A DNA stretch of 64,000 bases, taken from the NCBI RefSeq assembly GCF_900115825.1, contig NZ_FOXW01000005.1:124001-188000 (forward strand). Reading direction: 5' to 3'. Source of the stretch: Desemzia incerta. GTDB lineage: Bacteria; Bacillota; Bacilli; Lactobacillales; Carnobacteriaceae. A program made the translations under genes and the position numbers. The notes under the pieces were generated by a model. It worked only from the letters and a program-made list of their open reading frames with translations, did not search any database and was not told the DNA's origin. The number at the start of each line of letters is the position of its first letter. Within the stretch, counting starts at the first letter, position 1. Of this stretch, positions 4,746 through 60,401 are shown piece by piece.

Positions 4746-4963
4746 GTCCATCCTCCTTGAAACGGTTTCATATCCTTCGATATCATACCACATTCTGCTA
4801 AGAGCATTAACGAGTTTTAAGAAAATCCCGTAAGGAATGTGACGATTATTTGAAAGCTGCCTTATCCAATCGTAGAATACAGATTGGTTTTATTCTTTAA
4901 AAGATAATCTTTAGCTTGTTTTTTTAGGTATTATTAGATAAACTAAAATAGTTGTCATCCTAC

Positions 4964-24709: not shown

Positions 24710-24766
24710 AAACACTGGCTCCAAAAAGTTGTCCATCGGATAAACTTTTAGAGTCAGTGTTTCTTT
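24709..24766 (+). terminator. Terminator after fbp
   Basis: AAACACTG-CTC-AAAAAGTT pairs with AAACTTTT-GAG-CAGTGTTT over a long stem with small mismatches and ends in TTTCTTT. Confidence 0.85.
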
Positions 24767-24861
24767 ACAAAGATAAAACCTCTTTTTCATTAACTTACTA
24801 AGAGTTTCTGTTACAATAAGTAAATAGAGTATAGTGTTAGAAAAGAAGTGGAGGAGAAAGA

Positions 24862-25539
24862 ATGAATAAAGGATGTACATTTTATTTCGTTCGACATGGT
24901 CAAACATATTTTAATCATTACCGTAAGATCCAAGGATGGAGTAATACTCCATTGACTGAAGAAGGTGCGGAAGATGTTTACCGCAGTGCCAGAGGTTTAG
25001 CGGATGTGAAGTTCGACGCTGTTTATACGAGCGATTTGAGCAGAACGGTTCAAACAGCTAGTATTATTTTAGAAGAGAATAAGCACGCTGATGAGTTGAC
25101 TATTGAAATGATGCCGGAATTCAGAGAAGTATTTTTTGGTTCATTTGAAGGAGAAGACGTGGATAAAGCTTGGGCTGCAATCAATAAAGAATTGAAGTAT
25201 CCGTCTGTTGCAGAGATGTATGCTCAATCCAGTATTCCTGAACGAATGAATGCAACGAAAAAAGCAGACCCTCATAATGATGCAGAGGACTTTTTGACGT
25301 TTTGGACAAGAATTGAAGAAGGTCTGATGAAATTGATCAGCAAACACCGCGATACTGGCGAAAAAATTCTTGTAGTGGCTCATGGCAATACCATCCGCTA
25401 CTTATTGAATAATCTAGTTGCTGAACTGGAAAATCCACAACCCTTATTGAATGCGAGCGTTTCAGTAGCTACTTACCGTGATGGGGCGTATCATTTGGAG
25501 AAATACAATGAAGTAAGACATTTCAAAGACATCGAGTAA
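24862..25539 (+). CDS. Histidine phosphatase family protein (GpmB-like)
   Basis: Branch-1 histidine phosphatase of 225 residues. The N-terminal FVRHGQTYFN holds the phospho-accepting histidine, GWSNTPLTEEG follows, YTSDLSRTVQTA supplies the second arginine and VAHGNTIR the second catalytic histidine. Relatives include broad phosphatases annotated as phosphoglycerate mutase; with GpmI present, this one is unlikely to be the glycolytic mutase. Substrate unknown. It starts at the ATG at 24862 after GGAGGAG (24851-24857) and is 36 bases before a HAD phosphatase, probably on the same transcript. Confidence 0.88.
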   Translation: MNKGCTFYFVRHGQTYFNHYRKIQGWSNTPLTEEGAEDVYRSARGLADVKFDAVYTSDLSRTVQTASIILEENKHADELTIEMMPEFREVFFGSFEGEDVDKAWAAINKELKYPSVAEMYAQSSIPERMNATKKADPHNDAEDFLTFWTRIEEGLMKLISKHRDTGEKILVVAHGNTIRYLLNNLVAELENPQPLLNASVSVATYRDGAYHLEKYNEVRHFKDIE

Positions 25540-25575
25540 AAATCATCTGTTAAATGAGACAATGGAGGAAATAGA

Positions 25576-26355
25576 GTGAAACCAAAAGGCTTAGTATTTT
25601 TTGATTTGGATGGAACGTTGTTGAATGCTACATCAGAATTGGACAAAGAAATCAGTGAAGCACTGGAAAGTATGAAACAAAATGGAATTATTCCTTTTGT
25701 GGCTACAGGAAGAAGCCCGTTGGAGATCCAACATGTTTTAGAAAATAGTCCAATCGACTCTTTCATCACACTAAATGGACAGTATATCGTTTATGAAGGA
25801 AAAGAAGTTTACCGTAGTGTGATCCCTCAACCTTTAATGAAAGAATTAAAGGAAGCTGCGGACGAACACGACTTTCCATTATCTATGTACACGCACAATA
25901 AGATTCGTACGACTAAAGATTCCGAGACAATGGTTACAGCTTACAAAAATATTCATACAATGCCTCCGAAAGTGGATGAGGATTTTCATTTGAACGAAGA
26001 GGTTTTGATGGCATTGATCATTAACGATGATGCTGGTTATGACAACCACTTCCGCGAACGATTCCCAGAATTGTCTTTTTACCGAAACACTCCTTATAGT
26101 GTAGATACCATCATTAAAAACAATTCGAAAGCAACAGGAATCAAAGAGCTGGAAAAATTGCTTGGATTGGAAAATGTTCCTACCTATGCTTTTGGAGATG
26201 GTCCGAATGATAAAGAAATGATCCAGTATGCTGACTATGGCATCGCTATGCAAAATGGTGTAGGAGAAGTGAAAGAAGTAGCTGATTATGTAACCTCTGC
26301 CAGTAATGTAGACGGCGGTATCATCGAAGGACTCAAAAAGTTTCAATTGATTTAA
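25576..26355 (+). CDS. Cof-type HAD-IIB phosphatase
   Basis: HAD-superfamily phosphatase of 259 residues. The nucleophile aspartate is in DLDGTLLN (near residue 10), motif II threonine in ATGRSP, the lysine in the KATGIKEL segment, and motif IV in FGDGPNDKEM. The C2B cap between motifs II and III places it with Cof/YkrA/YidA sugar- or flavin-phosphate phosphatases; the substrate is not known. The start is GTG at 25576 after GGAGGAA (25564-25570). It is probably co-transcribed with the preceding histidine phosphatase and ends at a terminator shared with the convergent sirtuin gene. Confidence 0.9.
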   Translation: MKPKGLVFFDLDGTLLNATSELDKEISEALESMKQNGIIPFVATGRSPLEIQHVLENSPIDSFITLNGQYIVYEGKEVYRSVIPQPLMKELKEAADEHDFPLSMYTHNKIRTTKDSETMVTAYKNIHTMPPKVDEDFHLNEEVLMALIINDDAGYDNHFRERFPELSFYRNTPYSVDTIIKNNSKATGIKELEKLLGLENVPTYAFGDGPNDKEMIQYADYGIAMQNGVGEVKEVADYVTSASNVDGGIIEGLKKFQLI

Positions 26356-26360
26356 AAATA

Positions 26361-26399
26361 AAAGTGAGGCTGGGAGTTATTTCCCAGCCTCACTTTTTT
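26361..26399. terminator. Bidirectional terminator between the HAD phosphatase and the sirtuin
   Basis: AAAGTGAGGCTGGGA and TCCCAGCCTCACTTT are perfect 15-base arms; T tracts exist on both strands. It overlaps the sirtuin stop codon. Confidence 0.93.
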
Positions 26400-27141
26400 A
26401 TGCATGGACAGTTAATTTGCTGAATGTTTCTCCGACCGGTTCAGTGATCGTCAAATCAACTTGTACATCTTTTATTTTTAAAGGAGATTGATTGATGACG
26501 ACGACTTCACTTCCTGTGAAATGACGAATCAACGTTTTTGCCGGATACACAGACAAGGAAGTCCCCGCAATAATTAATAAGTCTGAGTCAGCAATCAATT
26601 CTTTGGCTCGATCTAAAATACCCGGCTTTAAATTCTCACCAAATAAAATCACATCTGCCCGAATGATGCCATTATCAATAGGACAACGTGGAACATTAGT
26701 GTCATCTCTGGGAATTTCGTTGTACGGGTATTCCCGTCCGCATTCCATACAGTAAAAGTGCCGATTATTCCCATGCAGTTCCACCACTAATTTACTGCCG
26801 GCTTTTTGGTGTAAGCCGTCCACATTTTGAGTGATGATACGGACATCTTTTCCTTGTTTTTCCAACTCAGCTAAAAAACGATGACCGGCATTGGGTTCAG
26901 GAATAAGAGGCTTAGTCTGATTATCTCTAGGTTTAAAGAACTCCTCTGGATTTTCCAGCATGAAACGTTTGCTCATGCGGATTTTTGGATTCAGTTGTTT
27001 TTCTTCCATCTTTGTATACGTACCTTCTTGTGACCGGTAATCTGGAAGGCCGCTTTCTGTTGAAACACCTGCACCACCGAAAAAAGCTATTTTTTTGGAT
27101 TGATGAATATAGTGCTGAAGTTGTTCGATTTGATTTTTCAA
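26398..27141 (-). CDS. cobB: NAD-dependent protein deacylase, sirtuin family
   Basis: Sir2-family protein of 247 residues. GAGVSTESGLPDYRS near residue 23 and TQNVDGLHQKAG near residue 105 bind NAD, and the catalytic histidine is in VELHGN. The zinc module is incomplete: CMEC is present, but the second pair reads CPID instead of CPxC. Such enzymes remove acyl groups from lysines using NAD. The start is a TTG at 27141-27139, chosen because GGAGGAGG lies just upstream on the minus strand; the frame is open much further, up to 27375 inside the tmRNA gene, but that extension is not protein-like. It lies downstream of the tmRNA terminator and is convergent with the HAD gene. Confidence 0.9.
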   Translation of the reverse strand: MKNQIEQLQHYIHQSKKIAFFGGAGVSTESGLPDYRSQEGTYTKMEEKQLNPKIRMSKRFMLENPEEFFKPRDNQTKPLIPEPNAGHRFLAELEKQGKDVRIITQNVDGLHQKAGSKLVVELHGNNRHFYCMECGREYPYNEIPRDDTNVPRCPIDNGIIRADVILFGENLKPGILDRAKELIADSDLLIIAGTSLSVYPAKTLIRHFTGSEVVVINQSPLKIKDVQVDLTITEPVGETFSKLTVHA

Positions 27142-27276
27142 CGCATATCCTCCTCCTAAGTACATTTCTATTATTTTAAGAGTAGCAGATAATTGAGTGA
27201 CATAAAAAATATTTGTTTTATGTAGATGGAATCTAGACTGCGTGTTTTTGTAAATTAAACTATTACTAAAGAGAAT

Positions 27277-27320
27277 AAAAAACAGCTTGTAAGACTGTTT
27301 GACCAGTTTTACAAGCTGTT
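27277..27320 (-). terminator. Terminator of the tmRNA gene
   Basis: AACAGCTTGTAA (27281-27292) and TTACAAGCTGTT (27309-27320) form a perfect 12-base stem; on the minus strand it is followed by TTTTTTA. Confidence 0.88.
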
Positions 27321-27332
27321 TGTTTGTAATTA

Positions 27333-27696
27333 TGGAGACGAGGGGAGTCGAACCCCTGTCCAAACATAACGACACTTAGACTTCTACGTTTATAGTTATG
27401 CTATTAAGATTTCGCTCAGTATTAGCCGCACAACCGGCATCATACGTTGCTAGTCTGATGATCTCTTCTAAAACTTCCAGACGGAAAGGTTTAGCGTATC
27501 CCACTGATTATAGGACCCTTGCTCGAGTACATGGGCGATACCGAGAGGATCTACGCTAGCTGGTTTTACGCAGCTAAAGCGTAAGTGTTGTTATTGTTTT
27601 TAGCAGTTATATTTAACTGGTAACGTTTTAACGTAGCCGTAACCTACGAAACGCAATCCAAGCTCGACCTATGCCTGTCGAATCCGTAACGCCCCC
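27333..27696 (-). ncRNA. ssrA: Transfer-messenger RNA (tmRNA)
   Basis: Read on the minus strand, the 5' end GGGGGCG pairs with CGTCTCC at the 3' end, giving the tRNA-like acceptor; the 5' part GGATTCGACAGG and the 3' T arm (GGGGTTCGACTCCCC) are canonical. The resume codon and tag frame (27604-27566) read GCT followed by codons for KNNNNTYALAA and a stop TAA, a typical degradation tag ending in ALAA. Length about 364 bases, one piece; CCA is not encoded. It rescues stalled ribosomes with SmpB (19613-20071), and the tag directs products to ClpP-type proteases. Confidence 0.96.
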
Positions 27697-27917
27697 GAAA
27701 TAAAAGGGAGTACAGACTTAGTACTTAAAGTACTATAATAGTCATCTGTCTAACTCTGGATACAGTATAGCACATTCCCTTATAAAAAGAAAGTTTGTTC
27801 GCTCGGAAAAACGAAGGAACAGACAAAAAAACTAAATTTATTCTATTTCAAAGATGAATAGTCAATTTTTTTCGATTCTTGAGTCTTCTGAGTCAATTTT
27901 ATTTATGGTAGATACTA

Positions 27918-27923
27918 TATAAT
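27918..27923 (+). promoter_or_regulatory. -10 element before the glucuronide transporter remnant
   Basis: A consensus TATAAT lies 166 bases before the transporter start; the -35 region is weak. The catabolite site at 28040 lies downstream of the presumed start site, where CcpA could act as a roadblock. Confidence 0.45.
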
Positions 27924-28039
27924 GAGTTTCATATAAGTGGAAGAGGTTTCTTATAGTGAGACGTAGTGTCAAAAAACTATCTTGAAACCTAAAGTATTTC
28001 AGTGATTAAGAAAGGAGCTAATTTTCCAATAGTAATAAA

Positions 28040-28053
28040 TGTAAGCGTTAACT
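28040..28053 (+). promoter_or_regulatory. Catabolite-responsive element (cre)
   Basis: TGTAAGCGTTAACT matches the CcpA consensus TGWAANCGNTNWCA except at the last base. It lies 36 bases before the transporter start, as expected for a sugar locus under carbon catabolite repression. Confidence 0.75.
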
Positions 28054-28088
28054 TAAGTGGTGGCAATAAAATAGAGGAGTGTGTGAAA

Positions 28089-29396
28089 ATGGAAAAAGTA
28101 ATTGATGTACATCCAGATAATCTTGCTACAAAAAGGCCTAGTAGTTATCGAACAGCAAAAACTTGGCAGATTGGAGCTTTTGCTTTAAACAATACGGCTA
28201 CGAATATTTTTATGTTTTTGATGACTTTCGTTTCTTATTATGCAACTGGAATCGTCGGTTTAGGAACGGTTCTTGTATCAACTCTTATTACTGGTAGTCG
28301 TCTTTGGGACGGTATTACGGACCCTATTGTAGGCTTATGGATCGACAAAACGGATGGTAAACTTGGGAAGTTTAGACCATTTATGATTGCTGGTTATGTC
28401 GTTATGACCATTACAGTTCTGCTGATATTTTTTACAAATCATTTAGTTCCTCAAAACGTTCGATTGATTTATTTTGTATTGCTTTATGCTATTTATATTG
28501 TTGGTTATACATTTCAAACTGCTTGTACAAAATCTGGACAAACCGTATTGACTAATGATCCTAACCAAAGACCTTTGTTTTCTACCTTTGACTTGTCTTA
28601 CACATCTTTATTTTTTGCAGGGGCGGCAATTTATATTTCTAATTACTTAGAACCAAAACACGGTGGTTTCAATATTGACTTCTTTAGTGAATTTGTTCTA
28701 ACCGTTGTTTTAGCTGCAGGTTTACTGACACTTTTAGCCACTATCGGAATCTGGAAACATGATAAGACAGAAAACTTTGGTACTGGAGGAAAACAAGAAA
28801 AAATTGGTTTAAAAGATATGTTTGCGATTTTAAAAGGTAATCGTCCCTTACAAATGTTGATTGTTGCTGCGGCTACAGATAAATTGGCATTGACAGTCGC
28901 GAATAACTCAATTGTAATGGTATTGTTATTTGGAGTCGTTATTGGAGATTACGGATTATATGGACAAATGTCAGCTTACACAATGATTCCATCTCTCCTA
29001 ATTATCCAAGTTGGAACCAGGTATGCACGTAAGCTAGGTTCTAAACAAGCACTAGTCGTTTCTACATGGGCGTGTATTATTGTCTACTCAGCTTTATTTG
29101 TATTGCTTTGGTTAGGAGATCCATCGACAATCAGCTTTAGTAATATGAGCTTCATGACGATTGCTTTCTTAGTATTGTTTATATTAGGTAATGGAGTAAG
29201 AACGGTAGCTGGCGGAATCGTTATTCCAATGATTCCAGATATTACAGACTATGAAACGTATAAAACAGGTCGTTACGCGCCAGGGGTTATGGGAACTATT
29301 TTTTCTTTTGTAGATAAAATGATCTCGTCTTTTGGTCAATCGCAAATGAACCGGCATTGCATGAAGAAGGTGCACGAGAATATTTTGAGCCGTTGA
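28089..29396 (+). pseudogene. Glucuronide/GPH-family sugar transporter, C-terminus lost by deletion
   Basis: Major facilitator (MFS_2, GPH cation symporter) protein. Ten or so hydrophobic helices are visible, with the GPH signature segment LWDGITDPIVGLWIDK-like near residue 75 and DITDYETYKTGRYAPG near the end. The native sequence runs to SSFGQS at about 29343; the remaining 17 or so codons before the stop are beta-glucuronidase DNA read in the wrong frame, so the last helices are missing. The start is the ATG at 28089 (MEKVIDVHPD), after GAGGAG; upstream codons back to 28002 contain the cre site and are not coding. The neighbour identifies the likely substrate as glucuronides. Confidence 0.85.
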
Positions 29397-29917
29397 TTAA
29401 CTTGACGAAAGAATTGGATCCGCAAAACCGACCTGTAACCATCGTGAATATTCAAATGTCTACACCAGATAAAGATTTAGTAGCTGATTTATTAGATGTT
29501 ATTTGTTTGAATCGTTATTACGGTTGGTATTTCCATACAGGAGATTTGAAAGCTGGGGAAAAAGGTCTGCGTGAAGAATTAGACTTATGGGAAGAAATGT
29601 ACCCTGGTAAACCAGTGATGTTTACAGAATACGGTGCAGATACCGTTCCAGGGTATCATGCAATCGATGTTATTCCATTTACAGAAGAATATCAGGTACG
29701 TTACTACAACATGTACCACAAAGTATTTGACGATTATAAACAAGTTATTGGAGAACAATTGTGGAACTTTGCGGATTTTGAAACAAAAGTCGGCATCAAT
29801 CGCGTGCAAGGAAACAAAAAAGGGATCTTTACTCGTGCGAGAGAACCAAAAATGATCGCACATGTATTAAGAGAACGTTGGACAGCTATGCCTGATTTTG
29901 GCTATAAAAGCGAATAA
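29330..29917 (+). pseudogene. uidA: Beta-glucuronidase, C-terminal third only
   Basis: Remnant of a GH2 beta-glucuronidase. From 29333 the frame reads WSIANEP, the family's acid/base motif, continues through CLNRYYGWY, the nucleophile segment [15 protein letters not shown] and NKKGIFTR, and ends normally at 29917. About 400 N-terminal residues (the sugar-binding and immunoglobulin-like domains and half of the barrel) are absent, so it cannot fold into an active enzyme. There is no start codon or ribosome site at the junction; the deletion fused it, out of frame, to the transporter gene. Full-length relatives are about 600 residues. Confidence 0.9.
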
Positions 29918-29922
29918 GTTTT

Positions 29923-29958
29923 AAAACACTGAAGCAAATGTTGCTTCAGTGTTTTTTT
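29923..29958 (+). terminator. Terminator after the uidA remnant
   Basis: AAAACACTGAAGCAA-ATG-TTGCTTCAGTGTTTT is a perfect stem followed by T7. Confidence 0.95.
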
Positions 29959-30033
29959 GTTGTCCTGTTGTTTGTAATTGAACAAATAATGAAAAAATTA
30001 AAGAAAACGGCTGGGCTTTGAATCGGATAACAG

Positions 30034-30062
30034 TTGCTAAAAAGCCGCTGTTGTCATAAAAT
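30034..30062 (+). promoter_or_regulatory. Promoter of the suf operon
   Basis: -35 TTGCTA (30034-30039), 17-base spacer, -10 TAAAAT (30057-30062), about 70 bases before sufC. Confidence 0.6.
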
Positions 30063-30139
30063 AGAGAGGTATAAATCAAAGAAACTCTTCAATAACTATT
30101 TGTGAAATAATTATAAAACTTTAGAGAGTAGGAAGCTTT

Positions 30140-30913
30140 ATGGCGAGATTGGAAGTAAAAAATCTGCATGTATCCATAGAAGATAAAGAAATCTTAAAAG
30201 GCGTCGATTTAATCATGAATACAGGGGAAATCCATGCCATCATGGGTCCGAATGGAACTGGAAAGTCGACGCTCTCAGCAGCGATCATGGGACATCCCAG
30301 CTACACCGTTACTAAAGGCGAAATTTTATTGGATGGGCAAGATGTATTAGAGATGGAAGTCGACGAAAGAGCTCGAGCTGGACTTTTTTTAGCTGTTCAG
30401 TACCCAAGCGAGATAGCAGGGATCACAAATGCTGAGTTTATGCGGGCCGCCATCAACGCTAGACGTCCAGAAGGCAATAAAATTCCTGTGATGGAGTTTA
30501 TTCGGAAATTAGATGAGAAAATGGCTGTTTTAGATATGCCGGAAGAAATGGCGGAACGTTATTTGAACGAAGGCTTTTCCGGTGGAGAGAAAAAACGAAA
30601 TGAGATCTTGCAATTGATGATGATCGAATCTACATTTGCGATTTTAGATGAAATCGATTCAGGATTGGATATCGATGCATTGAAAGTCGTCTCTAAAGGG
30701 GTTAATGCAATGAGAGGAGAGAATTTCGGTTCATTGATTATTACACATTATCAGCGGTTGTTGAATTACATCACTCCTGATGTGGTCCATGTGATGATGA
30801 ATGGAATCATCGTCAAAACAGGCGGGGCAGAATTGGCGAAACGATTAGAAGTCGAAGGGTATAAAGGAATCAGAGATGAATTAGGTTTAGAAGTCGTGTT
30901 AGACGAAGATTAA
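30140..30913 (+). CDS. sufC: Fe-S cluster assembly ATPase SufC
   Basis: ABC-type ATPase of 257 residues. Walker A GPNGTGKST is near residue 37, the ABC signature FSGGEKKRNEI near residue 150 and Walker B FAILDEIDSGLD near residue 172. SufC hydrolyses ATP within the SufBCD scaffold complex that builds iron-sulfur clusters in the cytoplasm. It is the first gene of sufCDSUB and lies 12 bases before sufD. Confidence 0.97.
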   Translation: MARLEVKNLHVSIEDKEILKGVDLIMNTGEIHAIMGPNGTGKSTLSAAIMGHPSYTVTKGEILLDGQDVLEMEVDERARAGLFLAVQYPSEIAGITNAEFMRAAINARRPEGNKIPVMEFIRKLDEKMAVLDMPEEMAERYLNEGFSGGEKKRNEILQLMMIESTFAILDEIDSGLDIDALKVVSKGVNAMRGENFGSLIITHYQRLLNYITPDVVHVMMNGIIVKTGGAELAKRLEVEGYKGIRDELGLEVVLDED

Positions 30914-30925
30914 GGAGGCAAGTCA

Positions 30926-33853
<2,928 letters not shown>

Positions 33854-33876
33854 AAGAATCGTAAGGAGGAGAACAA

Positions 33877-35268
33877 ATGGAAGTACCTGAACGCGAACAG
33901 TATCAATACGGTTTCCATGATGACGTGGATTCTATTTACACGACTGGAAAAGGCCTTACGGAAAAGACAGTCAGAGAAATCTCGCAACGCAAAAATGAAC
34001 CGGAGTGGATGCTGGATTATCGATTAAAAGCCTACTCGCACTTCTTGAAACGACCCATGCCTGAATGGGGAGCAGATTTATCAGCAATCGACTTTGATGA
34101 AATCACCTATTACAAGACCGTCAGCAATCAACCTGAACGCAGTTGGGAAGATGTTCCAGAGAAAGTCAAAGAAACTTTTGAACGCTTAGGAATACCAGAA
34201 GCAGAACGGAAATATTTAGCAGGTGCTGGAGCGCAATACGAATCGGAAGTCGTTTACCACAACATGAAAGAAGAATTTGAAAAACTGGGGATCGTTTTTA
34301 CCGATACAGATTCAGCATTGAAAGAGTATCCGGAAATCTTTAAAGAACACTTTGGAACAGTCGTACCGGCAACGGATAATAAATTGGCTGCATTAAATGC
34401 CTCTGTCTGGTCTGGCGGAACGTTTATTTACGTGCCGAAAGGTGTCCGCTGTGATGTTCCTTTGCAAATGTATTTCCGCATCAATGATGAAGCGATGGGT
34501 CAATTTGAACGGACGCTGATCGTGGTGGATGAAGGAGCGAGTGTGCATTATGTAGAAGGGTGTACAGCACCCACGTTTTCTTCCAGCAGTCTGCATGCGG
34601 CTATCGTAGAGATCGTTGTTAAAAAAGATGCGTACTGTCGTTACACCACGATCCAAAACTGGTCGAACAACGTGTACAATTTGGTGACCAAACGGGCAGT
34701 CGCGCTTGAAGGAGCGACGATGGAATGGGTCGACGGGAACCTCGGAGCCAAGACTACGATGAAATACCCAAGTATTGCGTTAAATGGACGTGGAGCCAGA
34801 GGAACGATGTTGTCTATTGCGATGGCAGGAGCTGGACAAAACCAAGATACGGGAGCCAAAATGATTCATAATGCTCCGAACACTTCCAGTTCTATCGTTT
34901 CAAAATCGATTGCGAAAGATGGCGGAGAAGTCAACTACCGCGGACAAGTAACTTTCGGAAAAAATTCCGGTGGGTCGATTTCTCATATTGAATGCGACAC
35001 GATTATTATGGATGACTTGTCTAAATCTGATACGATCCCGTTCAATGAGATCCACAACGGAAATGTTTCTCTGGAACACGAAGCCAAAGTCTCAAAAATA
35101 TCGGAAGAACAACTCTATTACTTGATGAGCCGAGGTTTAACGGAACAACAAGCCACTGAAATGATCGTCATGGGATTTGTTGAACCGTTCTCGAAAGAAC
35201 TCCCAATGGAATATGCAGTAGAATTGAACCGATTGATCGCTTATGAGATGGAAGGGTCAGTGGGGTAG
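33877..35268 (+). CDS. sufB: Fe-S cluster assembly protein SufB
   Basis: Main scaffold subunit, 463 residues. Family marks are the N-terminal [14 protein letters not shown] segment, [25 protein letters not shown] with a cysteine, and the C-terminal [21 protein letters not shown]. With SufC and SufD it holds the nascent cluster before transfer to apoproteins. It has AAGGAGG at 33862-33868 and is the last gene of the operon, followed by a terminator. Confidence 0.97.
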
Positions 35269-35283
35269 TATAGGTATACACTC

Positions 35284-35332
35284 ATAAATCTTAGGATGCT
35301 ATTAAGAAAATAGATCCTAGGATTTATTTTTT
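35284..35332 (+). terminator. Terminator of the suf operon
   Basis: ATAAATC-TAGGAT pairs with ATCCTA-GATTTAT around a 16-base loop and is followed by T5. Confidence 0.85.
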
Positions 35333-35452
35333 ATTAAAGGATTTTGTTTTAGGTAATGTTAATAGTAATGCTAATGCCTATAAGGAATGCTTATCATAGA
35401 GTTCATTTTTACTTGGTGGTTTCTTCTAACATTCCTCTATAGAATATGTAAT

Positions 35453-35466
35453 TGAAAACGCTTTAT
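35453..35466 (+). promoter_or_regulatory. Possible cre site before the OFA transporter
   Basis: TGAAAACGCTTTAT matches 12 of 14 positions of the CcpA consensus. It lies 42 bases before the next gene. Confidence 0.4.
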
Positions 35467-35507
35467 AAAGCGAGCTCATATTACTTAAGATTATAGGAGG
35501 AAGGTAG

Positions 35508-36722
35508 ATGAAACAAGAAAAGAATCGTTGGTTAATTTTGATTGCAGCTATCATAACAAATTTGGCATTAGGAGCAGGGTATGCTTGGTCAGTGTTCCAA
35601 ACGGCTTTATTAGAGACCAATACAGATTGGACGTTGAGTGAAACATCTTTAGCGTTTAGTATCTCATTCGCGATGGTTCCGGTTGGGATGATCATTTGCG
35701 GACCGATCGTTGATAAACACGGCGGAAAGAAAGTCGTTCTTGCGGCTGGGTTGTTGTTTGGTTTAGGAATGTTCTTAACGGGTTTTGCAAACAGCATTAT
35801 TATGTTGTATTTAACTTATGGAGTGATTTTAGGGTTAGGGATCGGGGCTGGATATGGAACGGCTACTGCCTTAACTGTAAAATGGTTCCCAGACAAAAAA
35901 GGCTTGGCTGGCGGATTAACAGCAGCTGGATTTGGATCTGGAGCAATCTTGTTGGCTCCTATTGCTACTAATATGATTGAGAGTGTAGGCGTAAATGATA
36001 CATTTAAAATCTTAGGCGGAATCTTATTAGTTGTCATTTGTGCAGCATCTTTCGTGATGGAAAACCCGCCTGTGCAAGAAAAAGCCGTTGGAGTAACAAC
36101 TGACAAAGACAAAAATTACAAAGAAATGCTTCGTGATTTAAACTTCTGGATTTTATGGGCAATTTATACATTTGCAGCAACAAGTGGATTAATGGTAATT
36201 GGTCACGCGGCTAACTTAGCTTCTTACTACACATTGGGAGCTGGAGCGGTTATTGTTATGGTCGTAGGACTGGCAAATACATTAGGAAGAATTTTCTGGG
36301 GTTCAGTTTCAGATAAAATCGGAAGATACAAAACAGTTATGAGTATGTTTATTGTTTCAGGAACTGGATTGATCTTATTAAATTTTGCGAACACATTGGA
36401 AGCTGTTGCCGGTATTGCAGGATTGATCTTTATTGCTTTATCATTTGGCGGGTTCTTAGGTTCTTTCCCTGGAATCACAGCAGAGAACTGGGGAGCATCA
36501 AAATCAGCTTCTAACTATGGCTGGATGTTCACGGCTTATGGAATCGCATCGATTTTAGGCCCATCGCTTGCTTCAAGCATCAGAGAATCAACAGGTTCTT
36601 ACTCAATGGCGTTATTGATTTCAGCAGGAATGGCACTTGTGGGAGCTGGAATGATTTTGTTCTACATGAACAGAGTCAACAAAGCAAGTAATGTAAAACA
36701 AAAAGCTGTAAAACAGAATTAA
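35508..36722 (+). CDS. MFS transporter of the oxalate/formate antiporter (OFA) family
   Basis: Twelve-helix major facilitator of 404 residues. The N-terminus (NLALGAGYAWSVFQTAL) and the loop GRIFWGSVSDKIGR near residue 260 match the OFA family, whose characterised members exchange oxalate and formate or carry other monocarboxylates. The actual substrate is unknown; lactate or pyruvate-like acids are plausible. The ATG has ATAGGAGGAAGG upstream. The gene is monocistronic between the suf terminator and a bidirectional terminator, possibly under CcpA. Confidence 0.85.
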   Translation: MKQEKNRWLILIAAIITNLALGAGYAWSVFQTALLETNTDWTLSETSLAFSISFAMVPVGMIICGPIVDKHGGKKVVLAAGLLFGLGMFLTGFANSIIMLYLTYGVILGLGIGAGYGTATALTVKWFPDKKGLAGGLTAAGFGSGAILLAPIATNMIESVGVNDTFKILGGILLVVICAASFVMENPPVQEKAVGVTTDKDKNYKEMLRDLNFWILWAIYTFAATSGLMVIGHAANLASYYTLGAGAVIVMVVGLANTLGRIFWGSVSDKIGRYKTVMSMFIVSGTGLILLNFANTLEAVAGIAGLIFIALSFGGFLGSFPGITAENWGASKSASNYGWMFTAYGIASILGPSLASSIRESTGSYSMALLISAGMALVGAGMILFYMNRVNKASNVKQKAVKQN

Positions 36723-36743
36723 CCGTATAAACTAATCAAATAG

Positions 36744-36793
36744 AAAACCATGCTGGGTATCTTTATAAGAAAGACATCCAGCATCGTTTTTTT
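36744..36793. terminator. Bidirectional terminator
   Basis: ATGCTGG-T-TCTTT pairs with AAAGA-ATCCAGCAT around a 4-base loop, with T tracts toward both convergent genes. Confidence 0.85.
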
Positions 36794-36794
36794 A

Positions 36795-38261
36795 TTACCA
36801 GAATAGTTCTTCTGCATATTCCCAAGTTTTACCCTCATCAGTAGACCGGTAAAGTAAGTGACTAGCTTTATTGTAGTCTCCATCTTGTCCTTGGCCGACC
36901 GGAAGAAAGAGATCTCCATTATCTTCGTACGGTATTTCGGGAAAATCAAACGGATTGTATTTTTCTGTTTCCGTTAAAGGAACTTGTACAGGAGGAATCT
37001 CTACTTTTTCAAATGTCACTCCGCCATCTGTTGTGAGATACAATTCCGAGTAACTTCCTCCATTATGAGACAAACCGATAAATCCCAGCTGTTCATTGAT
37101 AAAGGTAATTCCAGTAGATACACCCAATTCACCTAAAAAAGGATCAGGATTGATGAGCTCCCAAGTATTTCCGCCATCCAATGACTGACTCAAGGTGTAA
37201 AAGCGAGACCCGGCAGCGGCGTCAACGACGGTCAATTGATACCCTAATTGTTTAGTGAGGAAAAAAGTTTCGCCATCATTTTGCGGCTGTGTTGCCTCAA
37301 TGGCAACTTCTTCTTGAAGCATTCCAGCAGTAGAAAAATCCATGAAACGCATAGGTGTTTTAGTATCATTATCAGGTGCGTATAGAGAAATCGTATAACC
37401 TGTGATTTCATTAGAAGCATCTGTTAGTGGAAGAGTATTTCCTTCTTGGTCAAAATAAACAATGCCTTCTGTGTTGTATCCCCAACTTCGGTAACCTGCA
37501 TAATAAATGCCGACCGTTTCTTCCCCCCACTCAGCAACTGTTTCTTTTAAAGGAAGAGTTTTTACGCCGTCAAACAAAGGTTGTAATTTCATCGTATCCT
37601 CAAAAGTTGGATCAGCGAACCCATTTAAGTAAACACGTATGTCCTTGCTTTTTTCACGATCATAACTCAATAAAAAGCTTTTCGTTTCTTTATTTTCGTC
37701 AAGACCATAAAAGAAACTGTAGATATAAGTGATTTCACCGTCACTATTGAATGTGAAATCAAATTCATTAGAAAGATACAGTTCTTCCGGCAACTCCAAT
37801 TCAGTTTGCAGATCGACAAGTAAGCCGTCTAAGCCATCTTCATAGACATTATTGTGTACGAATGCTATATCACGAGTATTGAAGAAATCGTGTATCTCAA
37901 AAGCTAACTTCCCTTGAAAATGGATAGCACTTTGATAAATTTGGAATCCTGTAACGAGAGTAATGAAGGTGAAAGAAAGAAGGCTTATCCTAAACCACCA
38001 TTTACAAAAGTTTTCCCATATAGAGGAGGGTGAACTTTTGCCAGAAGTATTTTTTACGGCATTACGCTTTTTTCTGTATCGGTAAAAACACCAACCAAAC
38101 CAAATCAGCAAGCTGCCAAAAGTAGCCAGTATGATTGGTGCTCTTCTTGCAACACCACCATACCAAGCAAGAAAAGACAAATAATAGCAGCCAATACCAT
38201 AAACGACTAAAACGATTGGGTTGAAAACCAGAGCTCTCCATTTAAAGTTTTTCTTTTTCAA
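36795..38261 (-). CDS. Membrane protein with C-terminal BNR/Asp-box repeats
   Basis: A 488-residue protein that I do not recognise as a named family. Two hydrophobic helices lie at about residues 12-32 and 40-60, then a basic linker and a third helix near 88-110, after which the chain is probably outside the cell. The C-terminal half carries three Asp-box motifs (SxDGGxTW type) at QSLDGGNTWELI, TTDGGVTFEKVE and RSTDEGKTWEYAEE, spaced as in beta-propellers of sialidases and photosystem-assembly factors. No catalytic arginines of sialidases were seen, so a binding or sensing propeller is more likely. It has a good ribosome site (AAGGAG) and is monocistronic. Confidence 0.7.
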   Translation of the reverse strand: MKKKNFKWRALVFNPIVLVVYGIGCYYLSFLAWYGGVARRAPIILATFGSLLIWFGWCFYRYRKKRNAVKNTSGKSSPSSIWENFCKWWFRISLLSFTFITLVTGFQIYQSAIHFQGKLAFEIHDFFNTRDIAFVHNNVYEDGLDGLLVDLQTELELPEELYLSNEFDFTFNSDGEITYIYSFFYGLDENKETKSFLLSYDREKSKDIRVYLNGFADPTFEDTMKLQPLFDGVKTLPLKETVAEWGEETVGIYYAGYRSWGYNTEGIVYFDQEGNTLPLTDASNEITGYTISLYAPDNDTKTPMRFMDFSTAGMLQEEVAIEATQPQNDGETFFLTKQLGYQLTVVDAAAGSRFYTLSQSLDGGNTWELINPDPFLGELGVSTGITFINEQLGFIGLSHNGGSYSELYLTTDGGVTFEKVEIPPVQVPLTETEKYNPFDFPEIPYEDNGDLFLPVGQGQDGDYNKASHLLYRSTDEGKTWEYAEELFW

Positions 38262-38373
38262 TTCAGTTGTCTCCTTATTAAAGTAGTGACTACTTCATGT
38301 CCATTATAGAATGTATTTTACCGTTAGATCATTCAAATTGCACATGTTTGTCAAAACAAGATTTCAGTGCATA

Positions 38374-38408
38374 AGAGATGCAGTAGACATTGAGTCTACT
38401 GCATCTCT
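38374..38408 (-). terminator. Perfect inverted repeat after brnQ
   Basis: AGAGATGCAGTAGAC and GTCTACTGCATCTCT are perfect 15-base arms with a 5-base loop, just past the brnQ stop. The T tract is poor, so it may terminate weakly or protect the mRNA end. Confidence 0.7.
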
Positions 38409-38415
38409 CAGGAAT

Positions 38416-39726
38416 TTAATAGGTGACTTTTGGTTGTTTCATTCCTGCTAAGTACCCCATGACATATCCACTGACCAGTAGAGGAATCCATTCCAATTGA
38501 TAAGAGTAAAGTGGTAATATTTTTAACCAATCTGCTTGAAGCCAACCATTTGCATGGACCATGGAAAGTAAACTGATAAGAGAAACTACTATAACCGGTA
38601 TTTGCAAACTGAGGCGTGGTGAAGGAATGAAGTACGTGAACAAAAGAAGCAAAACCGTACTCATTGCGATTGGATAAATCACATTTAAAACAGGTACACT
38701 GGTTTTGATGACTTGATCCAAACCTTGATTAGCTAATATGAATGAGACGATTGTAAATAGTACTGCAAAAGTTTTATAAGAAATCTTTGGAAACAAACTA
38801 TTAAAGTATTCACTGACTGCTGAAATCAAGCCTGTAGCTGTTGTCAAACAGCTTAAGAAAACGATTGTTCCAAGCAAAATGATCCCTAGAGCACCGAAGG
38901 CTTCATTTGAGACATATTGCAATAAAAAAGTACCGAGATTTTGTTTTTCAGGAAGACCGTTATTCAATATCACCCGATTACCCGTCCAACCTAAACCGAT
39001 ATAAACTAAGCCAAGTAATAAAGCAGCTAGAAACGAAGATTTCACAGTTCCGATCAGCAAATCCTTTCGATTCGTTACTCCTAAATTTCGTATAGAATTC
39101 AAAACGATAATAGAAAAAGCAATTGCCCCGATGGCATCCATCGTCAAGTAACCTTCAGTAAAGCCTATAATGGAAGGAGCTTGCAATTCAAATGAAACAT
39201 CTGCTGTTTGAGGATCATTTGAATAGTACATCGTTATTGTTCGAATAATAAGGATGAGAATCGTTACTAATAAAGTAGGTGTTAAATATTTTCCTATATT
39301 ATCTGCTAAGCTGTTCGGGTTTAGTGCAACAAATAAAACCAATAAAAAGAAGAGAATTGAAAAGAAAAATAAACTCATGTTTGTCGATTGTTGTAAAAAA
39401 GGGACAACACCAATTTCATAAGCCGTTGTTGCTGTTCTAGGAATAGCGAAAAACGGACCAATGGTTAAGTAAACAACGATTAAAAAGATAATGGAATATA
39501 CCGGATGAATCTGTTTCAACGATGCTCTATATCCGTTTTCTGAAATAGAACCGACAATGACACTTAATAAAGGAAGACCGACGCCGGTCAAAATAAAGCC
39601 TAAAATAGCTGATAAAAAATATTCTCCACTTTGAAAACCTAAAGCGGTTGGGAAAATCAGGTTTCCAGCACCAAAAAACAGCGCAAAAAGCATAAAACCA
39701 ACTACAAATATATCTTTTCTTTGCAT
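38416..39726 (-). CDS. brnQ: Branched-chain amino acid transport carrier BrnQ
   Basis: LIVCS-family secondary carrier of 436 residues with twelve hydrophobic segments. The N-terminus FVVGFMLFALFFGAGNLIFP is the family signature. It imports leucine, isoleucine and valine with Na+ or H+. The start is placed at the ATG at 39726-39724, which follows TTGGAGGC on the minus strand; the open frame continues 14 codons further upstream without a better site. No T-box or clear CodY site was found in the upstream 150 bases. Confidence 0.93.
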   Translation of the reverse strand: MQRKDIFVVGFMLFALFFGAGNLIFPTALGFQSGEYFLSAILGFILTGVGLPLLSVIVGSISENGYRASLKQIHPVYSIIFLIVVYLTIGPFFAIPRTATTAYEIGVVPFLQQSTNMSLFFFSILFFLLVLFVALNPNSLADNIGKYLTPTLLVTILILIIRTITMYYSNDPQTADVSFELQAPSIIGFTEGYLTMDAIGAIAFSIIVLNSIRNLGVTNRKDLLIGTVKSSFLAALLLGLVYIGLGWTGNRVILNNGLPEKQNLGTFLLQYVSNEAFGALGIILLGTIVFLSCLTTATGLISAVSEYFNSLFPKISYKTFAVLFTIVSFILANQGLDQVIKTSVPVLNVIYPIAMSTVLLLLFTYFIPSPRLSLQIPVIVVSLISLLSMVHANGWLQADWLKILPLYSYQLEWIPLLVSGYVMGYLAGMKQPKVTY

Positions 39727-39885
39727 TAAATTGCCTCCAATGAAAATTAAACTAATTACATGTATCAATACACAATAGTAGGAATATCTCAGAAATGGCG
39801 CGAATAGTCAATATGCATAAAAATATAACGCGCGAAATTGAATCAACCATGGACGAGTATAGATATTTATTTTAATGAATACAGA

Positions 39886-39920
39886 AAACGCTGGATTTTC
39901 TAAATAAGAATCCAGCGTTT
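39886..39920. terminator. Terminator downstream of the YtoQ gene
   Basis: AAACGCTGGATT and GAATCCAGCGTTT form a strong hairpin between two minus-strand genes, separating ytoQ from brnQ. Confidence 0.85.
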
Positions 39921-39951
39921 AATAAAATAGAAGATCAGTATACATTATCCA

Positions 39952-40392
39952 TCATCGAAAAACATACTCCAAGACTTGTACAGCTTGATCAATCGATTCC
40001 ACTGTTACATTGGCTTTGTTAGACAATTCTTTCAAGGGGTGGATCAATTTTTCAGGGCGAACAATAATCAAGGGTTTACCCGTGTTGATAGCTGCAGCAG
40101 CATCCATCGCCGTGTTCCATTGACGGTATTCTTCTCCAAATAGAGCAATAACGATGTCCGCTTTTTGCATCAATACTTGAGTTCTGAAGTTATTGATGTC
40201 ACTGGCTGCTTGGTCTTTAAACAAATTGTTGGGTTGTTTTCCTAATACTTCTTCTCCGATGTTGTCAGATAGATCATGATTGGTTTGCGGACCTACAAAG
40301 GAATAAGGCAAGTTCTTTTCTTTCACTAGTTTGATGATATCTTCACGCCAATTATCGTGAATTTGTCCTGCTAAATAGACAGTCAATTCCAT
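39952..40392 (-). CDS. YtoQ family protein
   Basis: A 146-residue protein of the YtoQ family, related to nucleoside 2-deoxyribosyltransferases: MELTVYLAGQIHDNWRE at the start, GPQTNHDLSDNIGEE in the middle and a conserved DxxAALFGEEYRQWNTAMDA-like region. The biochemical role is not established. It is divergent from the DsbA-like gene at 40545 and has AAAAGGAGAG before its ATG. It is sure to be coding by length, ribosome site and family resemblance. Confidence 0.85.
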   Translation of the reverse strand: MELTVYLAGQIHDNWREDIIKLVKEKNLPYSFVGPQTNHDLSDNIGEEVLGKQPNNLFKDQAASDINNFRTQVLMQKADIVIALFGEEYRQWNTAMDAAAAINTGKPLIIVRPEKLIHPLKELSNKANVTVESIDQAVQVLEYVFR

Positions 40393-40544
40393 AATATCTC
40401 TCCTTTTAGATGTATTACTTCTATCATATAGTATTTGGAAATAGTTTGCTGAAAATTGAGTTGTTGATAAGGAGAAGCATTTAAGTTACAATAAGTAAGT
40501 GAATTGAAAAGGACGAAATAATGTAAACGACTAGGAGTGTTGAT

Positions 40545-41252
40545 ATGCAAGTAGAGTTTTTTCATGATGCGATTTGCAGTTTTTGTTTTCCAATGTCTTA
40601 TCGAATGAGAAAAGTAGCGAAGAAATATCCAAAATTAGACATCGTGCATCGGTCATTTGCTTTAGGATGGGAAAAAGAGCAATTTGTTCAAATGTTTGGT
40701 TCACATGAAGCGGTAAAACCTGAAGTGATGCATCATTGGGAAAGTGCCAATCAAAATGATGACGAACACCGATTTAATATCGAAGGAATGAAAGAGCAAG
40801 ATTTCTTATTCCCAACTTCTAAAAATGGATTGAAAGCTGCTAAAGCTGCGGGTATCATAGCTGATCAAGAATCGTATTGGGATGTTTTCGACGGTTTACA
40901 ACATGCGCTGTTTGTGGAAAATAAAGATATTTCTGACTTAACGGTTATTGAAGAAGTTATCAAACAAACTTCAGTTGACTTCAATGCATGGAAAACTCAA
41001 TTTGAAGACCTTGAAACTGAACAAGCCGTTAGAGAAGATCTCCAAAGAGTTCAGGATTACGGTATTCAAGGAGCACCAGCAGTAGTAGTGAATCAAAAAT
41101 ATTTAATCAGTGGAGCGCAACCGCAAGAAGTCATTGAACAAACGATTGAAAAAATCGCTGAAGAAGAAGGATTCCAATTAAAAGGATTAAAATTGATGGG
41201 AACGGATGCGTCGGCTTGCAATATGATTGACGGCCAATGGATCTGTGACTAA
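40545..41252 (+). CDS. DsbA/FrnE family thiol oxidoreductase
   Basis: A 235-residue DsbA-family protein of the FrnE/HCCA-isomerase type. The redox motif near the N-terminus reads CSFC (residues 11-14) rather than the common CPWC, followed by an all-helical insertion and a C-terminal GIQGAPAVVVNQKYLISGAQP block, typical of FrnE. No signal peptide, so it acts in the cytoplasm. FrnE of Deinococcus helps against oxidative stress; in Lactobacillales the substrate is unknown. Two extra cysteines lie at the C-terminus (SACNM, WICD). Confidence 0.87.
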   Translation: MQVEFFHDAICSFCFPMSYRMRKVAKKYPKLDIVHRSFALGWEKEQFVQMFGSHEAVKPEVMHHWESANQNDDEHRFNIEGMKEQDFLFPTSKNGLKAAKAAGIIADQESYWDVFDGLQHALFVENKDISDLTVIEEVIKQTSVDFNAWKTQFEDLETEQAVREDLQRVQDYGIQGAPAVVVNQKYLISGAQPQEVIEQTIEKIAEEEGFQLKGLKLMGTDASACNMIDGQWICD

Positions 41253-51057: not shown

Positions 51058-51240
51058 TTGTTAAAAAGTGAATAAAAAAAGCGCGTTTTATATAGAAAAT
51101 ATTTTTTTGAACCTTTATGTTGGTTTTTTCACAATTAGGGTGTATAATGTGAATGAAGTTATGGAAGTGGACGGATTTTAAGAGAATATGATTTTCATAG
51201 CTTTGAAAACGGATAATAAAAATGGAGGTAAGAAATTATT

Positions 51241-51801
51241 ATGGCTACATTTAACAAAAAAAGAGGTTTATTCTTAGGGGTTTGTGCATCATTTATTATT
51301 TTTGCAGCAGGTTGTGGAAACAACGAAGAAACAACTGAAAGCGAATCTAGTGCAGCAGAAGAAAGTACAGAAGTTGTGACAACTGCTTCAATCAGCAATA
51401 ACCCAGCAGACGTAGTAGCTGGTTTAAGCCAAAATGGTACTTGGATTTATGCAATCACTGATGATGTTACAGTAGAAGAAGAAATCGTTGTAGCTGGAAC
51501 TTTCCACGATGGCGGGGAAGATAGTGGAGATGTTTACCGTAAATTAGCTTTGTATGCTCAAGATGATGATCGTAACGTTACTGATGAGTTCACATTAACT
51601 GCACCTAAAATGACTGTAGAATCACCAAACTTCAGAATCCAAAATGGTACTTTTGTCGGAGACGTAGAAGTTAAAGCTGAAGGTTTTGAATTAGCTGAAT
51701 CTACAATTGAAGGAAACGTAACTTTTGAAACTCAAGAATTAATGGATTCTGCAAAAATGGATGAAGGTACAGTAACTGGAGAAGTAACTGTAGCTGAATA
51801 A
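51241..51801 (+). CDS. Acidic lipoprotein of unknown function
   Basis: A 186-residue lipoprotein that I cannot assign. The signal peptide ends in FAAGC (cysteine about residue 24), followed by a linker rich in Glu, Ser and Thr. The mature part is strongly acidic with regular beta-strand periodicity near the end (NFRIQNGTFVGDVEVKAEGFELAESTIEGNVTFE), as in short right-handed beta-helix or bactofilin-like folds. Codon use is strongly biased, like the glycolytic genes, suggesting high expression. GGAGG lies 11 bases before the ATG and a terminator follows, so it is monocistronic. Confidence 0.72.
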   Translation: MATFNKKRGLFLGVCASFIIFAAGCGNNEETTESESSAAEESTEVVTTASISNNPADVVAGLSQNGTWIYAITDDVTVEEEIVVAGTFHDGGEDSGDVYRKLALYAQDDDRNVTDEFTLTAPKMTVESPNFRIQNGTFVGDVEVKAEGFELAESTIEGNVTFETQELMDSAKMDEGTVTGEVTVAE

Positions 51802-51821
51802 TCTAAAACTATAAAGTTGAG

Positions 51822-51857
51822 TATCCTGCCTTCATTAAAAAGGTAGGATATTTTTTT
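51822..51857 (+). terminator. Terminator after the acidic lipoprotein gene
   Basis: TATCCT-CCTT and AAGG-AGGATA pair around a 7-base loop, then T7. Confidence 0.9.
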
Positions 51858-51909
51858 ATCAAAAATAACAGATATCTGTAGCAGAGAATAGGTAAGGAGC
51901 GTTTTCTAT

Positions 51910-52488
51910 ATGAAACCAAAAGATGTATTATTACTTTTAACAGACGACTGGGCAGATTGGTAAGCAGCCCATGCAATAGCAGAGGTCAATTCTGTACCTC
52001 AATATACGGTGAAAACCATTGCTGTAGATAAGCTGTCAAAAACCTCCATTGGCGGATTAAGAGCAGAAATTGATGTTTCGATAGAGGAGTACACAGATTT
52101 GAACAACTTGGCTATGGTTATTTTACCTGGAGGATTCTCTTGGCATCAAAAGAGATACAGCAAGATTGCAGCATTTATTAACCAGGTGATAGCTGCTGAT
52201 GTTCCTATTGCTGCTATTTGCGGAGCAACTATTTTTCTAGGCAGTCACGGTTTTTTGAATCAGGTACGACACACTGGAGACAGCAAAGATTTCTTTAAAG
52301 AATACACTGAGTATGAAGGCGAAGATTTATTTGTTGAGGCACAAGTCATACGTGATAAAAACATGATTACAGCTAATGAAACGGCTGCTGTTGAATTTGC
52401 CTATGAGATTTATAAGTTATTAGAGATCGATACGCCAGAAGCTATCGAAGATTGGTATGAGAATTTTAAGCATGGTTTTGTTCGGTAA
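51910..52488 (+). pseudogene. DJ-1/PfpI family protein with early stop codon
   Basis: A DJ-1/PfpI-type gene whose codon 18 is TAA (51961-51963). Before it the frame reads LLLTDDWADW and after it AAHAIAEVN, so the lost residue is the family's conserved glutamate (DWADWE-AA), a GAA-to-TAA change. The rest is intact to 52488 and includes VILPGGFSW and the nucleophile cysteine in AAICGATIFL. The ribosome site AAGGAG (51895-51900) and ATG (51910) are still there. A translation restart within the gene would lack the first beta-strand and the glutamate needed by the cysteine, so activity is unlikely. Relatives are deglycase- or amidase-like stress proteins of unsettled function. Confidence 0.88.
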
Positions 52489-52580
52489 GGCAAATTAAGG
52501 GATAATGATCAATGTCTTATGCAGTTGTAATGATTATTGCTATAATAATGACTAACACTAGTTCGAAGGGGATGGAATGA

Positions 52581-53390
52581 ATGGAGAAAGTGGCTTTAGC
52601 AAATGGGATTGAAATACCAATAGTAGGTACAGGAACGAATACTTATGGGAAAGAAGATAATCAGTACAATGGGGAGTTGAATGGAGACTTCAGTGCGCTG
52701 GAATCAGCTATTGAAGTTGGATATCGATTGATCGATACAGCCATCTCTTATCGAAATGAAGCGGGTGTTGGAAAGACGGTTGCAGAAAGCGGAATACCTC
52801 GCGAAGAATTTTATTTAACAACCAAAATTCCAGCTGACGATCGTTATGTTGGATCAAAAGAATCAGTTGAACAAACGATTTTAAACAGCCTAGAAAATTT
52901 AAGAACAGATTACATTGATTTGTATTTGATTCATCATCCTATCGAATCTATCGAAAAATTAAAACATACTTGGGAAGTGCTGGAATCCTTTGTAGACAAA
53001 GGTCAGATCAAATCCATCGGGGTATCAAACTTTACGGTAGAAATGTTGGAAACGATAAAAGGTTTTGCACGTATCCAACCTGCTGTCAATCAGATTCAAT
53101 CCAACCCTCATACTTGGAATGATGAAGTGATCGAGTATATGAAAAATAATAATATCGTGGCCGAAGCGTGGGGGCCATTAAGTCGAGTGACAGACGAACA
53201 AAAAGCTCGTCTAGAACAAATCGGTGAAAATTACGGGAAAAATTGGGGACAGGTTTTACTGCGTTATCAAATTCAACGCGGAGTGGTAGTTATTCCAAAA
53301 TCACATAATAAAGAAAGACAACTGTCTAATCTAGATATCTTTGACTTTGATTTAACTGTTGAAGATACAGTGATCATCAAGTCATTGTAA
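52581..53390 (+). CDS. Aldo/keto reductase
   Basis: AKR-superfamily TIM barrel of 269 residues. The catalytic tetrad is visible: aspartate in RLIDTAISY, tyrosine in SYRNE, lysine in LTTKIP and histidine in YLIHHP; the NADPH site is near VVIPKSHNKERQ. It reduces aldehydes or ketones; substrates are not predictable. An ATG four bases upstream is a different frame; the ATG at 52581 has AAGGGGATGG before it. It follows the broken DJ-1 gene by 92 bases and ends at a terminator shared with the convergent ATL gene. Confidence 0.9.
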   Translation: MEKVALANGIEIPIVGTGTNTYGKEDNQYNGELNGDFSALESAIEVGYRLIDTAISYRNEAGVGKTVAESGIPREEFYLTTKIPADDRYVGSKESVEQTILNSLENLRTDYIDLYLIHHPIESIEKLKHTWEVLESFVDKGQIKSIGVSNFTVEMLETIKGFARIQPAVNQIQSNPHTWNDEVIEYMKNNNIVAEAWGPLSRVTDEQKARLEQIGENYGKNWGQVLLRYQIQRGVVVIPKSHNKERQLSNLDIFDFDLTVEDTVIIKSL

Positions 53391-53393
53391 CCA

Positions 53394-53426
53394 AAAACCC
53401 TACATTCTTATGGAATGTAGGGTTTT
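53394..53426. terminator. Bidirectional terminator between the reductase and ATL genes
   Basis: AAAACCCTACATTC and GAATGTAGGGTTTT form a perfect stem; it overlaps the ATL stop codon. Confidence 0.92.
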
Positions 53427-53754
53427 ACATGTCTTCTTCAGCGATCCAATTCAGTACAGGTTCATATCGATAAAGAGAAAGATTGATTTTTCCAGATGGA
53501 GTAAAAAGAATGCCTTCAGAAGATAATCGTTCTTTTTGAGAAAACATATCCTCATCCAAAGAGATTTCACCTTTTGCATTGATTACTCGATGCCAAGGCA
53601 ATTGATGGCTTCGACTCATAGAATGCAAAACCCGCACCACTTGTCTAGCTCCTCTTGGATTCCCGGCAAGTGCAGCAATTTGACCGTATGTCATTACTTT
53701 CCCCGCAGGTATAGATTGGATAATAGAAATCACGCGTTCTGTAAATTGAGTCAT
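53425..53754 (-). CDS. Alkyltransferase-like protein (ATL, MGMT family)
   Basis: A 109-residue protein with the MGMT DNA-binding domain (MTYGQIAALAGNPRGARQVVRVL). At the alkyl-acceptor position the motif reads PWHRV in place of PCHRV, so there is no cysteine to take the alkyl group; this defines ATL proteins, which bind O6-alkylguanine and flag it for nucleotide excision repair. The start ATG has AGAGG upstream on the minus strand. It is 125 bases downstream of the FAH-family gene, separated by a terminator. Confidence 0.92.
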   Translation of the reverse strand: MTQFTERVISIIQSIPAGKVMTYGQIAALAGNPRGARQVVRVLHSMSRSHQLPWHRVINAKGEISLDEDMFSQKERLSSEGILFTPSGKINLSLYRYEPVLNWIAEEDM

Positions 53755-53816
53755 AAAGAAACCTCTTTTCTTGTAGGGTACAACATTGAAATTTATCCCT
53801 TAGCTGATAAAAACAT

Positions 53817-53864
53817 AAAAAAAGCAACTTGAAACGTTTATACCATTAGACGCTTCAAGCTGCT
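53817..53864 (-). terminator. Terminator after the FAH-family gene
   Basis: On the minus strand, AGCAGCTTGAAGCG pairs with CGTTTCAAGTTGCT (two non-canonical positions) and a T7 tract follows. Confidence 0.82.
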
Positions 53865-53879
53865 GAATAAAACTGATGA

Positions 53880-54785: not shown

Positions 54786-54856
54786 AAAATCACCTTCTTA
54801 TTATAAAGTATAAAATACTTGCTCAAAGATTTCAAAATTGCCTATTTTTTCACAAG

Positions 54857-55828: not shown

Positions 55829-56010
55829 TGCTGAATGTGTTCCTCCTGTATGGAATCGACCCATCTGCATTAAAGTAAATGCAAGTATGTCTATCCACTA
55901 AACCAAAATAGAATCTCCTTTGTAAAAAAGTTTCACTTTATCATAACCAATTTTTTTTCAGAAGTAAATTTATTTTGAAATTCGCTTAAACAGCGATTAA
56001 GCTGCAACTT

Positions 56011-56039
56011 TTGGATTTTTCGCAAAGTAACGTTATAAT
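56011..56039 (+). promoter_or_regulatory. Promoter of ald
   Basis: -35 TTGGAT (56011-56016), 17-base spacer and -10 TATAAT (56034-56039), about 90 bases before the ald start. Confidence 0.65.
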
Positions 56040-56137
56040 GGAAGAGAGTTAAGTAATTATCGTTTATTTGATACGTTAATAAAGATAAAAAATGGTATTA
56101 AATAGGTTTGCGGTACGAAAAAAATAGGAGGATTTAT

Positions 56138-57250: not shown

Positions 57251-57293
57251 TACATCTCCCATTGTAGAGAGTGAAAAGAGGATCAAGATTACT

Positions 57294-57524: not shown

Positions 57525-57582
57525 AACGAAATTCAATACGTAATGTGTAAGGAATAACCCAACTATAAGGATGTGGATTTCT

Positions 57583-58551: not shown

Positions 58552-58557
58552 TATGAG

Positions 58558-58589
58558 AAGGAGCAGGGATGAAAATCTTTGCTCCTTTT
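58558..58589 (+). terminator. Terminator after the YihY gene
   Basis: AAGGAGCA and TGCTCCTT, with an inner GGAT/ATCT extension, form a hairpin followed by TTTT. Confidence 0.72.
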
Positions 58590-60380: not shown

Positions 60381-60401
60381 TAGAGAAGGAGACGTTGGCG
60401 A

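Follow-up and report, generated by a model that had tools for sequence, protein, structure and literature searches.

The window (a stretch of 64,000 nucleotides of the Desemzia incerta genome, contig NZ_FOXW01000005.1) carries two incomplete genes on the plus strand. These are a 5' remnant of a sugar transporter gene of the GPH/MFS_2 family (28089 to 29339, 417 codons) and a 3' remnant of uidA, the gene encoding beta-glucuronidase (29333 to 29917, codon 408 to the end). The transporter frame runs on into an out-of-frame tail (29340 to 29396, plus strand) of 18 foreign residues and then a stop codon. The only other Desemzia genome compared was that of Desemzia sp. RIT 804, and the sample thus comprises one intact genome of the same genus and one genome of the host species. 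In the RIT 804 stretch (L006), open reading frames and profile matches gave the intact order of a GPH/MFS_2 transporter (L006:1212-2708, 498 aa), an AraC-family regulator (L006:2860-3756, 298 aa) and the beta-glucuronidase gene uidA (L006:3756-5558, 600 aa).

At the protein level, the transporter remnant is 90% identical to the intact RIT 804 transporter of 498 aa. Its open reading frame from 28089 to 29396 encodes 435 amino acids, against 495 in RIT 804 from the same ATG. The remnant is without the last 78 residues, including a hydrophobic segment at 443-475 in RIT 804 numbering. In the GPH cation symporter model TIGR00792, the window protein matched positions 4-370 of 437 with 149 bits and the RIT 804 protein positions 4-437 with 182 bits, both under the cut-off of 231 bits, while both proteins exceeded the cut-off of PF13347; the window protein gave no match over the whole length of the symporter profile (TIGR00792 / PF13347). 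The UidB model NF007353 scored 80 bits for the window and 108 bits for the intact protein, and neither reached the equivalog cut-off of 528 bits. The original label of a glucuronide transporter therefore draws on the operon context, which points to glucuronide as the probable substrate, but not on the UidB model. A transporter match at E <= 1e-60 was found in 3 of 18 genomes of the family, the host and RIT 804 being two of them.

The uidA remnant was recognised by NF007538, PF02836 and the alignment to L006, and its frame is open from 29333 to 29917. It scored 291 bits over positions 424-604 of 607 in NF007538, below the curated cut-off of 544 bits, compared with 881 bits for the intact RIT 804 enzyme. 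The barrel match to PF02836 covers positions 130-300 of 302, so that about 130 positions of the barrel model are absent. The sugar-binding domain (PF02837) and the immunoglobulin-like domain (PF00703), both present in RIT 804, had no match in the remnant, which thus lacks both N-terminal domains and the start of the TIM barrel. It retains the NEP motif (from residue 5) and the TEYGAD motif (from residue 98), which hold the two catalytic Glu residues of beta-glucuronidase. As the transporter has lost 78 residues with a hydrophobic segment and the hydrolase about two thirds of its length, it is likely that both remnants are non-functional.

The upstream flank of the window (24764-29339) is collinear with RIT 804 and includes a tmRNA gene (27333 to 27696, minus strand). 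Downstream of uidA, a terminator-like hairpin lies at 29923 to 29955 on the plus strand, the same 33 bases forming a self-inverted match; it was the one such hairpin in the stretch searched, and shuffled sequences gave a mean of 1. The synteny breaks directly after uidA (29910-30136 and 30136-41251). The host continues into the suf cluster, with matches at 30136-35267, while RIT 804 continues with a homologue of window 40432-41251 and later of 51090-63793, its suf genes lying about 27 kb further on. It appears that a block was relocated in one lineage, either that of the host or that of RIT 804. Within the suf cluster, sufD, sufS and sufU (30926-33853) show 68-77% protein identity to RIT 804, compared with 87% and 89% for the flanking sufC and sufB. 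The host genome carrying the window has a size of 2.33 Mb, and the genome announcement of Desemzia incerta gave 2.38 Mb (PMC10720548). Among the titles and abstract beginnings listed, none matched a transporter-uidA deletion, which may still be in print.

Comparison with the intact operon located the joint between the two remnants. Window 28008-29339 aligns to L006 1147-2471 on the transporter side (79.8% DNA identity), window 29333-29909 aligns to L006 4977-5553 in uidA (84.7% DNA identity), and the two blocks meet at 29333/29339 with an offset of 2,512 bp in RIT 804. This bears out the view of the initial annotation that a deletion scar joins the transporter to beta-glucuronidase. According to the open reading frames of RIT 804, the lost DNA comprises the final 78 codons of the transporter, the spacer, the regulator gene in full and the initial 407 codons of uidA, out of 600. 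The annotation had counted the transporter end and about 1.2 kb of uidA as removed. The figure for uidA was right, its share being 1,221 bp, but the annotation missed the intervening AraC-type gene, and the whole loss is about twice its estimate. The frame is shifted at the joint, 2,512 not being divisible by three, and no fusion enzyme results; an in-frame fusion protein was discarded for this reason and because the transporter frame stops at 29396.

Apart from one 39-base match of 85% on another contig, nothing in the host genome corresponded to the 2,505 bases that separate the match blocks. We took this match for another AraC-type gene, as it falls in the part of the query that encodes the helix-turn-helix of the regulator. 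Relocation of the missing piece was rejected since it was not found in the host genome, and an insertion in RIT 804, instead of a deletion in the window, was rejected since the extra 2.5 kb completes both genes. In 76 of 80 loci, among them L006, at least 590 of the 600 uidA residues were aligned, and the full-length gene is thus the usual form. The single intact relative, the extra DNA that completes both genes and the usual full length of uidA together suggest that the window represents the derived state. A deletion joining the 5' part of the transporter gene to the 3' third of uidA, as judged against this intact relative of the same genus, is well supported. We consider, with a probability of about 0.9, that a single deletion of 2,512 bp cut the transporter end, the whole AraC-family gene and two thirds of uidA out of the operon, which the relative still has in intact form.

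The initial annotation also proposed that 10-13 bases of identity between the two sites had driven the deletion, with TTTTGGTCAATCG at 29330-29342 fitting both parents. This sequence, which has its sole exact copy within the window here, can be read in both frames, and its location is correct. Translation gives ISSFGQ up to 29339 in the transporter frame and glucuronidase sequence from 29333 in the other. The fit does not extend to the outer codons. Across 80 loci, among them L006, the uidA codon before the conserved Trp encodes Met (76) or Leu (4), but it is TTT (Phe) in the window. The codon after Gln, the second S of SFGQS, is TCG in the window and Thr (ACC) in the intact transporter; the evidence on this side is weaker, because the position varies in more distant relatives. 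The same 10-13 bases were expected at both sites of a relative with intact genes, but between the two sites of RIT 804, in register with 29330-29342, 5 of 13 positions are identical. The window matches each of them at 9 of 13 positions, and some former identity may be hidden by the divergence from RIT 804, which affects 36-45% of third codon positions.

Two types of breakpoint model, each with a flat breakpoint prior, served to estimate how long the shared tract is. The posteriors placed the breakpoint within about 29331-29342, and the base-wise model, which used the observed difference rates per codon position, placed most of the posterior at 29331-29340. In this model, zero shared bases were the commonest outcome (0.42), with a probability of 0.037 for at least 7 and of 0.0006 for at least 10. 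For the codon-aware model, which was run at two rates of amino-acid change, the probabilities were 0.156 and 0.173 for at least 7 bases and 0.001 and 0.000 for at least 10, the means were 2.87 and 2.95, and 0-3 shared bases took about 0.77. Across the models the shared bases number 0-9, mostly 0-3. With a probability of about 0.001 or less for at least 10 bases in all three runs, recombination at 10-13 shared bases is very improbable.

The longest plausible shared tract is TGGTCAA (29333 to 29339), as given by the overlap of the alignments and the breakpoint posteriors, and a tract of at most about 7 bases in the ancestor of the host is possible on these models. If deletions prefer repeats, the 7-base tract gains weight over the flat prior. 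Random pairs of sites from the RIT 804 transporter and uidA shared at least 7 bases in 0.076% of 200,000 draws, and a 7-base tract, if real, would exceed chance. The test for a deletion at a direct repeat found no exact in-register repeat in RIT 804, which is one diverged relative. A listing of 20 of the 36 direct-repeat families and 25 of the 65 inverted pairs in RIT 804 contained no longer repeat placed at both endpoints. The closest of the listed inverted pairs (2450-2464 with 4794-4808, 80%) reaches one endpoint but is some 170 bases away from the other, and the exact-word check around both endpoints returned two shared 8-base words, neither of them in the junction register. TGGTCAA was also considered as a special motif; it occurs in 16 copies in the window against a shuffle mean of 9.75, and 2 of 100 shuffles reached 16.

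The age of the deletion was approached through the divergence of the remnants from RIT 804. The transporter remnant showed a pN of 0.052 and a dN/dS of 0.032 over 417 codons, and the uidA remnant a pN of 0.031 and a dN/dS of 0.022 over 193 codons. Nine neighbour genes were tried as yardsticks, of which seven were usable for pN (range 0.050-0.219) and four for dN/dS, namely sufB (0.027), a phosphoglycerate-mutase-like gene (0.028), sufC (0.049) and sufS (0.129), all of them intact. Compared with these neighbours, neither remnant has an excess of amino-acid change. The synonymous sites of sufD, sufU and the HAD gene were saturated, and these genes served for pN only. We left out fbp, which had no match in the RIT 804 stretches compared, and the sirtuin gene, in which 195 of 219 codons were scored as amino-acid differences against a tblastn identity of 66%, its codon alignment being judged faulty. 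Of 57 positions with at least 95% conservation across 79 other loci, 56 are kept in the uidA remnant, and 56 also in the intact RIT 804 gene. Far more change would be expected in a gene that had been dead for much of the period since the two lineages separated, and the deletion therefore looks recent on the scale of the host/RIT 804 split, this age being rough with synonymous sites near saturation. Among the 10 amino-acid differences of the uidA remnant from RIT 804, several lead to residues that the other loci seldom or never have (positions 494, 496, 520 and 533; the share of Val at 520 is 0.00), and some lead to the common residue, such as Cys at 465 (60 of 79). The rare residues could be first signs of decay.

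The open frames and the low amino-acid change would also be expected if the shortened transporter, the C-terminal fragment of the glucuronidase or both had been kept under selection for a new function. We regard this as extremely improbable, because the transporter is without its last 78 residues and their hydrophobic segment, the glucuronidase piece is without two domains and part of the barrel, and a recent loss accounts for the low change without new selection. A recent deletion may still be polymorphic within the species, and a natural pair of glucuronide-using and non-using strains is conceivable, though we hold it only tentatively. If this is true, an early step of operon decay would be open to study.

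The difference between the two genomes appears to go beyond this operon. Of the two genomes, uxaC (PF02614) and uxuA (PF03786) were each found in RIT 804 and not in the host. The search for the GH2 barrel gave one match in the host, which is the uidA remnant, and two whole-profile matches in RIT 804, which are uidA and a different gene with a frame of 1,021 aa. Since uxaC, uxuA and the other GH2-barrel gene were found in RIT 804 only, the loss of glucuronide use is, on gene content, a predicted difference between the two at the level of the pathway. This also bears on the possibility that the junction is an assembly or library artefact (a chimera) and that the living strain has an intact operon. 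The remnants are without clear decay, as those of a chimera would also be. However, uxaC and uxuA were not found in the host, nor the 2.5 kb elsewhere in an assembly rated 99.99% complete, and both results speak against it. A normal assembler would also not collapse sequences that share seven bases or fewer, so we consider an artefact improbable.

Taken together, the best reading is an ordinary deletion, by small homology or end joining, in a decaying catabolic operon. RecA-independent deletions at sites of little homology are a familiar phenomenon. We suggest that a process of this kind joined the ends, which could be replication slippage, single-strand annealing or end joining, since the sequence is consistent with each, and that the joining would have used few bases of chance identity, at most about 7. 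The deletion may have been tolerated because the downstream glucuronate pathway is missing. The case represents a clean, apparently recent deletion that broke an operon, and is otherwise ordinary gene loss. It warns annotators that the two frames of the window are gene pieces and not a transporter with a short glucuronidase. It also shows that a junction readable in two frames can make the shared sequence look longer than it is, which a comparison with an intact relative corrects.

In comparison with the operon of RIT 804, the window has the same genes up to and from the breakpoints and the same upstream neighbours, but the regulator is absent, both flanking genes are cut short and the downstream neighbours are different. 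Deletions between short direct repeats that are independent of RecA have been tested by experiment in E. coli models, and PMC5426353 also cites earlier work in which deletion rates rise with the length of the repeat. As in the direct-repeat deletions described there, the intervening DNA of the window is lost and one copy of any shared tract remains. One of the models in that paper has repeats that are 77% identical with up to 20 bp of perfect homology (PMC5426353), whereas the tract in the window would be at most about 7 bases, and maybe 0-3.
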